Source of the DNA: Bacteroidia bacterium
Lineage (GTDB): Bacteria; Bacteroidota; Bacteroidia; NS11-12g; UBA9320
Length of the DNA stretch: 64,000 bases
Reading direction: 5' to 3'
NCBI GenBank assembly: GCA_018402155.1
Contig: JAGYJG010000001.1
Coordinates: 818,198 to 882,197 of the forward strand
The position numbers and the translations under genes were made by a program. The notes under the pieces were generated by a model. That model was given only the letters and a program-made list of their open reading frames with translations. It ran no database searches and was not told the DNA's origin. Numbering within the stretch: position 1 is the stretch's first letter; every line of letters begins with the position of its first letter. Positions 7,524-40,065 of this stretch are shown one piece after another.

Positions 7524-7531
7524 TATATTTG
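7524..7531 (+). promoter_or_regulatory. -7 element 5 bases before the thioesterase start
   Basis: TATATTTG matches TAnnTTTG. The ATG follows after only 5 bases, so the predicted transcription start coincides with or nearly abuts the start codon. Confidence 0.5.
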
Positions 7532-19407: not shown

Positions 19408-19415
19408 CAAAATTA
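19408..19415 (-). promoter_or_regulatory. -7 element 5 bases before the DUF3817 start
   Basis: On the minus strand TAATTTTG matches TAnnTTTG and is followed by TAACT and the ATG, predicting a leaderless or almost leaderless mRNA. Confidence 0.45.
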
Positions 19416-24387: not shown

Positions 24388-24391
24388 AGTG

Positions 24392-24399
24392 CAAAGTTA
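24392..24399 (-). promoter_or_regulatory. -7 element 4 bases before prmC
   Basis: Minus-strand TAACTTTG, a perfect TAnnTTTG match, is followed by CACT and the ATG. A leaderless prmC mRNA is predicted. Confidence 0.5.
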
Positions 24400-24465
24400 G
24401 TATGAATATCTTTTGCTTTAGGCATAGTCTATCGCTGTGCCTTTTTTTTTCATTGATTTTAGTTT

Positions 24466-24473
24466 TAGTTTCG
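24466..24473 (+). promoter_or_regulatory. -7-like element 4 bases before ribD
   Basis: TAGTTTCG (TAnnTTCG variant) precedes the ribD GTG start by 4 bases. It supports the GTG as true start and again predicts a leaderless mRNA. Confidence 0.4.
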
Positions 24474-24477
24474 CAGT

Positions 24478-25491
24478 GTGCAGCACGAGAAGTACATGAA
24501 CAGATGCCTGGAATTGGCAAAATTAGGTGAGTTACATACAGCGCCTAACCCAATGGTGGGCTGTGTTATTGTACACAACCAAAAAGTAGTGGCTGAAGGA
24601 TATCATAAAAAATATGGCGATATGCATGCCGAAGTAAACGCTTTTAATGAGCTACCTAATCATATAGATCCCAAAACATGTACTGTTTATGTAAGTTTAG
24701 AGCCTTGCTCACATTTTGGTAAAACTCCTCCTTGTGCAGATTTTCTTGCACATATGCAGCCAGCTCAGGTAGTAGTTGGAATGCTAGACCCTAACCCAAA
24801 AGTAGCCGGAAAAGGGATTAGAAAGCTTATGGAATCTGGTATTAACGTGAGAGTTGGCGTGTTAGAAGCAGCTTGTAAAGATCTGAACAAGAAATTTCTT
24901 AAATCTCAACTTTGCTCACTACCCTATGTCACGTTAAAATGGGCCGAAACAACTAACGGTTTTATGGGTTCTGTTAATCAATCAGTAAAAATAAGCGACG
25001 GCTGTAACGATGAGTTAGTGCATCACCTTCGTGCCACGAATCAAGCCATATTGGTAGGTTCTAAAACTATAAATACGGACAATCCAGCTCTGGATGTGCG
25101 TCACGTAGAGGGTAAAAATCCTCTTAAAATTGTACTCTCTGAGAATCTCAATGTAGACCTAAAAAAAAATATATTTGCAAATAGCTTTACGCTAATATAC
25201 AACAAGCTTAAAGCAACAAAAACACCAACTTATGAACTGGTAAAACTGCCAGATTTTCATCTAAAAACTATATTAAGTGACCTACACTCCCGTGGCATTC
25301 AAAGTGTATTGGTAGAGGGTGGGGCACAGATTTTGGGACAATTTTTGAAAGAAAAAGCTTGGGATGAAACTATTCTATTAGTCTCCGATATTGAATGGGA
25401 TACGGGTATAAAAGCACCTTGGATAGGGAAATCCAGTAGTAGAGAAGAAAGAAGCGGTAAGGATATCATAAAGTACTTTTTTTCTAACTAA
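24478..25491 (+). CDS. ribD: bifunctional riboflavin biosynthesis deaminase/reductase
   Basis: Two-domain enzyme of flavin synthesis: an N-terminal zinc deaminase (about 1-145) and a C-terminal NADPH-dependent reductase (about 146-337) acting on the pyrimidine intermediate. The zinc site is visible as H50-A-E52 with C77 and C86 (EPCSHFGKTPPC). The reductase part has VTLKWAETTNG and the VEGGAQILGQF motif. The start is GTG, giving MQHEKYMNRCLELA, the normal family N-terminus. The EamA transporter starts 2 bases after it. No FMN riboswitch is seen upstream. Confidence 0.95.
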   Translation: MQHEKYMNRCLELAKLGELHTAPNPMVGCVIVHNQKVVAEGYHKKYGDMHAEVNAFNELPNHIDPKTCTVYVSLEPCSHFGKTPPCADFLAHMQPAQVVVGMLDPNPKVAGKGIRKLMESGINVRVGVLEAACKDLNKKFLKSQLCSLPYVTLKWAETTNGFMGSVNQSVKISDGCNDELVHHLRATNQAILVGSKTINTDNPALDVRHVEGKNPLKIVLSENLNVDLKKNIFANSFTLIYNKLKATKTPTYELVKLPDFHLKTILSDLHSRGIQSVLVEGGAQILGQFLKEKAWDETILLVSDIEWDTGIKAPWIGKSSSREERSGKDIIKYFFSN

Positions 25492-32213: not shown

Positions 32214-32221
32214 CAAAGTTA
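32214..32221 (-). promoter_or_regulatory. -7 element 4 bases before the glycosyltransferase start
   Basis: Minus-strand TAACTTTG followed by CAGT and the GTG start. It supports the GTG and predicts a leaderless mRNA. Confidence 0.48.
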
Positions 32222-32551: not shown

Positions 32552-32581
32552 TTCGCAAGTTCGGTGTTCGTATTACCTTCG
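32552..32581 (+). promoter_or_regulatory. promoter of the aminoacyl-histidine dipeptidase gene
   Basis: TTCG (32552-32555), an 18-base spacer, then TACCTTCG (32574-32581), both T-to-C variants of the TTTG/TAnnTTTG consensus. The ATG begins 5 bases later. Confidence 0.45.
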
Positions 32582-34215: not shown

Positions 34216-34914
34216 ATGAAAAAAATAACATTTTGCCTAATAGTTTTACTAGGAATAACTCAAGGATGTAAAACTATAATGACAACAGAAGGGAAAAAAA
34301 TAAAGCCGTTTAGAGGGATTATACTGTACGATGTAAAAGTAGAACAAAAATCTGATAGCAGTTTTGAAAAAAATAAGCAAGCACTATATGGCACAGAAAT
34401 GCGTCTTACAGTTTTCAAAAATGGAAATCTTCAGCGCCAGTATAGCGGGGCGTCTTCTACTGGATTTTCAATGTACTATATTGATATAAAAAACCAGGAA
34501 ATTTTGAAAAAATACAATAATTCTGACTCTCTGTATGTACACCCGAGCTCAGTTCAGAACATACGAAAAATTAGTGATTTACGAGGAGAAAAACTAGTAC
34601 AGAGCGTTCTAGACTACGAATTGAAAGAGATAGCAATAACCGCACAAGAGGCACCAAGCAGATTGAGTGCCGGGCGATACTTTACTATAAAGTATTGGTA
34701 CACCGATGCTTTGAAAATTGACAAAACCAACTATGCTGGCGTAAATGATGATTTATTAGGCTATTTTATGAATAAAGCTGATGGCTCTATTTACCTGAAA
34801 TATGAGATAGATTATTTCACGTATAAAGTGACCTATACCGCTAGGGAAATAGCGCCAGGTACATACGAAAAAACGAAGGAAATGTTGGAAGAATCTCCTA
34901 GGATTTTAAACTAA
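34216..34914 (+). CDS. hypothetical lipoprotein
   Basis: A 232-residue protein with a lipoprotein signal: hydrophobic 4-15 and lipobox GITQGC with C18. The rest is predominantly beta with alternating hydrophobic residues, for example GIILYDVKVEQKSD and YLKYEIDYFTYKVTYTA, and may resemble the GLPGLI/DUF4412-type periplasmic folds, but I cannot assign it. Its stop overlaps the end of the DUF6495 gene on the other strand by 4 bases. Confidence 0.7.
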   Translation: MKKITFCLIVLLGITQGCKTIMTTEGKKIKPFRGIILYDVKVEQKSDSSFEKNKQALYGTEMRLTVFKNGNLQRQYSGASSTGFSMYYIDIKNQEILKKYNNSDSLYVHPSSVQNIRKISDLRGEKLVQSVLDYELKEIAITAQEAPSRLSAGRYFTIKYWYTDALKIDKTNYAGVNDDLLGYFMNKADGSIYLKYEIDYFTYKVTYTAREIAPGTYEKTKEMLEESPRILN

Positions 34915-35309
34915 AACAGTCGTTCAAAATCTGCACCATCACTAATGGTGCACCCGTCTTTTATCATCATAAACATCTCGTATTCTCTTGTATTTTTATA
35001 TTCTTTTTGAGCAGTATATAGCTCAGTAGCACTTTCTCCTTTTACTATTTTTTTTAGCTCTATATTCTCATTTCCTAGTTTGAAGTAATATGCTGTTTTA
35101 TCTTCTATCTTATTTAGATACTTCGTACTCCGCAGTATACTCTCCCAAACCACATCGCTAAACTGATTAATAATTTCTTCTACATTCACTGGCTCGTTTT
35201 CTTTTAACGAAATCCAATCCTGCGCTGTGATTCCATTGACAACTAAAAAATCAACGAATTCTTTTTCAAGCTCTAGTAATTCTTCTTTTGAAAGTCTCTG
35301 ATATTTCAT
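34911..35309 (-). CDS. DUF6495 family protein
   Basis: A 132-residue cytoplasmic protein. The start MKYQRLSKEELLELEKEFVDFLVVNGI and the middle INQFSDVVWESILRSTKYL match the DUF6495 family of Bacteroidetes, which has no known function. Acidic, probably alpha-helical at the N-terminus. The convergent 4-base overlap with the lipoprotein gene leaves no room for a terminator between them. Confidence 0.75.
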   Translation of the reverse strand: MKYQRLSKEELLELEKEFVDFLVVNGITAQDWISLKENEPVNVEEIINQFSDVVWESILRSTKYLNKIEDKTAYYFKLGNENIELKKIVKGESATELYTAQKEYKNTREYEMFMMIKDGCTISDGADFERLF

Positions 35310-35370
35310 GACCTTACAAAGGTAGGAATTAGACAGTATTAACTGTTTATAGGATTTTTACTCTACAGGT

Positions 35371-35401
35371 TTTGATACTCTTTCTTTGGTACTTACTTTT
35401 G
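35371..35401 (+). promoter_or_regulatory. consensus Bacteroidetes promoter of the FKBP gene
   Basis: TTTG (35371-35374), a 19-base spacer, then TACTTTTG (35394-35401): a full match to TTTG-N19-TAnnTTTG. The ATG follows after 5 bases, so transcription should start at or within a base or two of the start codon. Confidence 0.65.
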
Positions 35402-35406
35402 CCTCA

Positions 35407-35898
35407 ATGAAAATAGGAAAAGACACCGTTGTAGGTGTAAATTACGAATTGGATGTAGACGGACAAAAACTAGATGCATCAGGAGACACTCCACTTACCT
35501 ACCTTCATGGTCATGGTATGATGATACCTGGCTTTGAGAGCAGACTTGAGGGCCTAAGTATTGGCGAAAATTACGACTTTATGGTGCCAGCTATCGAAGG
35601 GTACGGTGAGTTTAATGAAAACGCTATTGCTGAATTAGAAAAAGAGATTTTTTTGATAGATGGGAACATGAGTACCGAAGTGTTTGAAGGAGCGCAATTG
35701 CAATTAACAAACCAAGACGGGCAACCAATGGTAGGTGTAGTTAAATCAATAAGTGACGATAAGGTCACCATGGATTTTAACCACCAGCTTGCAGGAAAAG
35801 ATCTTCATTTTACAGGTTCTATAGCAGAAATCAGAAAAGCTACGTCAGAAGAAATAGAGCACGGCCACGTACACGGACCAGGTGGACACCAGCATTAA
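35407..35898 (+). CDS. SlyD-like FKBP-type peptidyl-prolyl isomerase
   Basis: A 163-residue cytoplasmic prolyl isomerase/chaperone. The FKBP core (GVNYELDVDGQKLD, TYLHGHGMMIPGFESRLEGL) is interrupted by an insert-in-flap domain (about residues 65-125), as in SlyD, and then resumes with DFNHQLAGKDLHFTGSI. The C-terminus ends with a His-rich tail (EHGHVHGPGGHQH) likely to bind nickel or other metals. I choose the ATG at 35407; an in-frame TTG at 35386 would overlap the promoter element. A good terminator follows. Confidence 0.93.
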   Translation: MKIGKDTVVGVNYELDVDGQKLDASGDTPLTYLHGHGMMIPGFESRLEGLSIGENYDFMVPAIEGYGEFNENAIAELEKEIFLIDGNMSTEVFEGAQLQLTNQDGQPMVGVVKSISDDKVTMDFNHQLAGKDLHFTGSIAEIRKATSEEIEHGHVHGPGGHQH

Positions 35899-39962: not shown

Positions 39963-39970
39963 CGAAAGTA
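39963..39970 (-). promoter_or_regulatory. -7 element 4 bases before ruvB GTG
   Basis: Minus-strand TACTTTCG (TAnnTTCG) with a TTG 22 bases further upstream (39993-39995 on the plus strand reads CAA). The GTG start lies 4 bases downstream of the element. Confidence 0.42.
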
Positions 39971-40065
39971 TGTATACTTATTGAAAGATGGGCAACGTTT
40001 TTTATGAACATTTCATCTAAAGAGTGTAATTGCTAAACATTCAGTGATTTCCTTTGAACTTTATT

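Follow-up and report, generated by a model that had tools for sequence, protein, structure and literature searches.

The window, by which we mean the whole 64-kb stretch of DNA analysed (positions 818198-882197 of its contig), comes from the 2.49 Mb, 37% GC genome of an uncultured Bacteroidota bacterium. It carries a gene for an FKBP-type peptidyl-prolyl isomerase and seven further genes with an octamer of the form TAnnTTTG or TAnnTTCG set 4 or 5 nt before the start codon (Table 1). These eight octamers had been picked out in an earlier sequence-only reading of the DNA, and their coordinates, strands and gaps were all confirmed. Every one of them matches TAnnTT[T/C]G, the form of the -7 box TAnnTTTG (TAHHTTTG) of Bacteroidota primary sigma-factor promoters. 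Pfam supported seven of the eight gene names given in that reading (methyltransferase, RibD, RuvB, 4HBT thioesterase, DUF3817, M20 peptidase and FKBP), but not "glycosyltransferase" for the 31343-32209 gene, which had zero Pfam matches at 1e-5.

Table 1. Predicted promoter elements and associated starts, in window coordinates
Feature	Sequence	Coordinates	Strand	Spacing and start
FKBP putative -33 element	TTTG	35371..35374	+	N19 to box
FKBP -7 box	TACTTTTG	35394..35401	+	gap CCTCA (5 nt) to ATG 35407
FKBP-type peptidyl-prolyl isomerase, predicted leaderless		35407..35898	+	ATG; Pfam FKBP_C from residue 4
prmC -7 box	TAACTTTG	24392..24399	-	gap 4 to ATG 24387
ribD -7 box	TAGTTTCG	24466..24473	+	gap 4 to GTG 24478
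31343-32209 gene -7 box	TAACTTTG	32214..32221	-	gap 4 to its GTG
ruvB -7 box	TACTTTCG	39963..39970	-	gap 4 to GTG 39958
ruvB upstream 13-mer	TAAAAAACGTTGC	39992..40004	-	~20 nt before -7 box
thioesterase -7 box	TATATTTG	7524..7531	+	gap 5 to ATG 7537
DUF3817 -7 box	TAATTTTG	19408..19415	-	gap 5 to ATG 19402
M20 dipeptidase -7 box	TACCTTCG	32574..32581	+	gap 5 to ATG 32587
DUF6495 gene (34911-35309) -7 box	TACCTTTG	35317..35324	-	gap 7 to ATG 35309

The FKBP promoter has the full TTTG-N19-TACTTTTG arrangement that the sequence-only reading had described, and TTTG was found ~18 nt before the box in 6 further orthologues out of 15. Among the eight genes, a -33 TTTG was reported for FKBP alone, and the gap-4/5 class as a whole showed no pile-up of TTTG at spacers of 19-21 nt. 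The -33 element was found to be weak in PMC6847099 as well, so its class-wide absence does not exclude membership among primary sigma-factor promoters. Divergent to FKBP lies the DUF6495 gene, an example of a class with ultra-short predicted leaders. The prmC and ribD genes are also divergent, ~90 bp apart (24388-24477), so that their two predicted leaderless promoters face away from each other; this arrangement is present in several relatives.

To place these cases in their genomic context, the window was combined with 800 kb of the same genome, giving 864 kb with 630 genes predicted by a codon-pair model to which promoter information was not an input. Raw whole-genome pattern counts were too noisy for use, and boxes were counted by their distance from predicted starts; every permutation of the octamer letters served as the control. 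At gaps of 4-5 nt, 28 boxes were observed against 1.3 expected (P = 2.5e-27), and only 2 were found at gaps 0-3, so that the distribution breaks off sharply below gap 4. The gene finder is crude (it missed DUF3817 and mis-set the start of ribD), and all genomes were sampled in part with predicted gene starts. A second member of the genus, G016, gave 15 boxes at gap 4-5 against 0.7 expected, with gaps 0-3 again near-empty, and samples of four other Bacteroidota also showed a peak at gap 4-5, with 16 in-frame ATG codons at gap 4 and 6 at gap 5. The gap counts in the 864 kb also bore out the remark that more genes have gaps of 8-16. Within the class of 28, G is rare at box positions 3 (4%) and 4 (0%); ribD has TAGT.

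By the terms of the sequence-only reading, its prediction of leaderless mRNAs would fail if relatives did not hold the octamer at its distance. Overall the spacing was kept, though only in part for prmC and DUF3817, and not for the thioesterase. In all 15 genus members, the FKBP gene had TAnnTTTG 5-6 nt before its ATG, and across 10 lineages the box was 100% identical compared to 36% for the 40 nt upstream of it. The ruvB gap was exactly 4 to GTG in 14/14 genus orthologues. All 15 ribD orthologues had the box at a gap of 4-5 to a GTG, TTG or CTG start (CTG in orthologue L058); the gap was 4-7 in 14/14 orthologues of the M20 dipeptidase and 4-5 in 11/11 orthologues of the 31343-32209 gene, where the start was GTG or ATG. 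Ten of the 13 listed DUF3817 sequences (own one counted) had a gap of 4-5, ten of the 15 prmC orthologues a gap of 4-6, and 14 of the 15 DUF6495 sequences (own one counted) a gap of 5-7. Since orthologues hold the spacing while the upstream DNA is saturated with changes, these comparisons count for a promoter fixed at the start codon. Relatives of the thioesterase are mostly at gap 8-11 and would have a short leader there rather than none. Among reciprocal best hits, gap-4/5 status was shared between this genome and G016 for 4/11 genes, against 5/143 others (P = 0.0015). Outside the genus the leaderless set as a whole was mostly not kept (G031 0/4, Flavobacterium WG47 0/5, Algoriphagus 0/3). 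The exception is ruvB, with a box 4-7 nt before the start in 46 of 62 other flavobacterial loci, 28 of those at a gap of 4; five permuted control motifs gave 0/79.

Two further observations came from these alignments. In prmC orthologues L065, L067 and L068, TAnnTTTG is replaced by TAAATTGC, which resembles SM5 (TAnnTTGY), a box that PMC9723704 reports for an alternative sigma factor of F. psychrophilum. Upstream of ruvB, the 13-mer TAAAAAACGTTGC stands out as conserved between diverging flanks in nearly all orthologues of the genus; in the 1.26 Mb sampled its exact matches occur only at ruvB, both 33 nt before the GTG, and it is possibly an operator or a special -33 element.

The reading had further claimed that the class is enriched for GTG and TTG starts. 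When start codons were taken as predicted, the result in this genome was negative (non-ATG, P = 0.8; GTG, P = 0.75), a consequence of start codons misplaced by the gene finder; we instead tallied the in-frame codon at every distance after the box, regardless of the predicted start. In-frame ATG was found 14 times at gap 4 and 21 times at gap 5; in-frame GTG was found 11 and 4 times, respectively, and about once per gap elsewhere. Out of frame, GTG did not occur at gap 4-5, and at gap 4 the 11 in-frame cases stand against 0 in each of the other frames. The GTG part of the claim held (15/180 in-frame codons at gap 4-5 vs 24/2936 at other gaps, P = 1e-9). The TTG part did not (3/180 vs 60/2936, P = 1), and the same in-frame count gave no enrichment of CTG at gap 4-5. 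Relative to ATG, GTG was also more frequent at gap 4-5 (15:35) than at gap 6-30 (21:173, P = 0.0015). Enrichment of GTG without TTG points to a 5'-terminal codon and not to a leader, since with a leader TTG should serve equally.

We then expressed the class as a share of promoters, taking boxes at gap 4-5 among those at gap 4-40 with background subtracted. This share was 22% (14-30) in this genome and 23% (13-35) in G016, and about half of the detectable promoters of this genome lay at a gap of 12 or less. In Flavobacterium WG47 the share was 6%, a calibration resting on 3 genes (Algoriphagus likewise had 3 genes at gap 4-5), which agrees with the 5.5% of leaderless genes measured in F. psychrophilum (PMC9723704). 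With shares of 19-23% in G031 and BBFL7, although with wide intervals, a high leaderless share cannot be called peculiar to the genus. The two groups did differ at intermediate distances: gaps 6-12 held 57 boxes vs 120 at gaps 13-40 in two genus members, compared with 7 vs 126 in four outsiders. Leaders of ~1-8 nt would seem to be avoided by the sampled relatives and populated in the genus of the source organism, where the lower length limit of the relatives appears relaxed.

The genes of the class sit at transcript heads and not inside operons: same-strand neighbours closer than 20 nt occur at none of the 28, compared to 123/559 other genes, and 19/28 have a divergent neighbour. Most are housekeeping genes, including ruvB, uvrC, RNase HII, histidyl-tRNA synthetase, malate/lactate dehydrogenase and methylmalonyl-CoA mutase. 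Predicted mRNA folding was no weaker in the leaderless genes than in others (P = 0.56). A covariance model and a 3'-end pattern found no 16S rRNA in this genome (called 99.6% complete) or in G016; the gene is either absent from the assemblies or masked.

Could this pattern have arisen from chance or from the picking of starts near boxes? Only six of the eight box bases are fixed, and an AT-rich genome of this GC content would be rich in TAnnTTTG. The gene finder is, however, blind to promoters, permuted octamers produced a small fraction of the boxes seen, GTG at these gaps is confined to the reading frame and the arrangement is conserved in orthologues. The permutation, reading-frame and orthologue controls together refute this explanation, to which we attach next to no probability. 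One could also suppose that the boxes are true promoters but that transcription starts a few nucleotides past the assigned start codon, or translation at a later in-frame codon, leaving ordinary leaders of ~15-25 nt. For ribD, an in-frame ATG at codon 7 would indeed give a leader of ~18 nt, yet orthologues L058 and L064 have the box and lack that ATG. Several N-terminal Pfam domains of the class begin at residue 1-4 (lactate/malate dehydrogenase, NIF3, ferredoxin and FKBP), and the enrichment of ATG and GTG at gap 4-5 is limited to the reading frame; both argue against a later start, and we consider this possibility improbable.

A slightly smaller probability goes to the start-proximal boxes being secondary, with the main transcripts arising further upstream and carrying normal leaders. 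Some promoters do not match TAnnTTTG, and flavobacteria have alternative sigma factors, as described in PMC9723704, which leaves room for such upstream promoters. Against them, a second box 16-110 nt upstream occurs at 2/28 class genes vs 2.3 expected, without any excess, and conservation covers box sequence and spacing but not the DNA farther upstream.

The conserved spacing, the enrichment of GTG without TTG or CTG and the spacing of transcription starts in F. johnsoniae all support the predicted leaderless class. In that species, a member of another genus, transcription starts 4 or 5 nt after many of the -7 elements (PMC6847099), and mRNAs from boxes at gap 4-5 should be leaderless if the same spacing applies. 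With this start-site spacing borrowed from a relative, it is very likely that the gap-4/5 boxes are primary sigma-factor promoters making leaderless mRNAs. We propose that a Bacteroidota-type primary sigma-factor promoter would hold its -7 box 4-5 nt before the start codon and that RNA polymerase would start on the A or G of ATG or GTG, giving an mRNA with a leader of 0 (or 1-2) nt. The ribosome would then initiate on the 5'-terminal AUG or GUG; Shine-Dalgarno pairing is not used in the phylum. About one fifth of the recognisable main promoters lie at leaderless distance, and leader-free translation is probably routine in this organism. For a broader model, drawn from the same sequence statistics, we see the chances as evenly balanced: ribosomes of the genus would routinely start on 5'-terminal AUG or GUG and tolerate leaders of 0-8 nt, about half of the primary promoters would lie 12 nt or less from the start, GUG starts would be mainly 5'-terminal, and a mycobacteria-like rule would have arisen separately in a phylum without Shine-Dalgarno pairing.

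These results bear on start-codon recognition in Bacteroidota, whose ribosomes do not rely on Shine-Dalgarno pairing; the conserved, predicted leaderless genes, some of them universal (ruvB, ribD), are natural test templates for it. They also provide an annotation rule, since translation very probably begins at an ATG or GTG that follows TAnnTTTG by 4-5 nt; for ribD, orthologues and promoter agree in moving the start from the ATG at 24553 set by the gene finder to the GTG at 24478. Predicted leaders of 0-8 nt occur in one lineage with a small genome while its relatives have a gap, which suggests that evolution can change how short a leader may be.

Leaderless mRNAs as such are already known in Bacteroidota, since 3.7-5.5% have been measured: 3.7% of B. 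thetaiotaomicron leaders are under 10 nt (PMC7366714), the upper figure being that of F. psychrophilum. These two species and F. johnsoniae (PMC9723704, PMC6847099, PMC7366714) share with our organism the phylum, the TAnnTTTG -7 box and the absence of Shine-Dalgarno use. Leaderless genes are a rare remainder in them, whereas here gap 4-5 accounts for ~22% (14-30%) of detectable promoters, and the accessible text of these Flavobacterium and Bacteroides reports does not describe single-gene leaderless conservation or GTG coupling. As far as the literature searched shows, what is new is that the placement is conserved, that GTG is coupled to it and that the valley at gaps 6-12 is missing. Zheng et al. 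2011 (PMC3160421) likewise took a -10-like box right before the start codon as a sign of leaderless genes (their TA-led genes). With the E. coli -10 box as reference they called such genes in only 1/37 Bacteroidetes/Chlorobi genomes, and they pointed out that leaderless genes might escape detection where the signal is not of the Pribnow type. The closest parallel in start-codon choice is mycobacterial leaderless translation (Shell et al. 2015, PMC4633059), where only ATG or GTG serves at the 5' end; here too, sequence enrichment favours ATG and GTG, and neither TTG nor CTG, at the predicted 5' end, as in the RTG rule. In E. coli, GTG gives under 10% activity (PMC4633059). The mycobacterial rule was shown by reporter assays and ribosome profiling, whereas ours comes from sequence statistics, and it belongs to another phylum with a different sigma factor and a different box.
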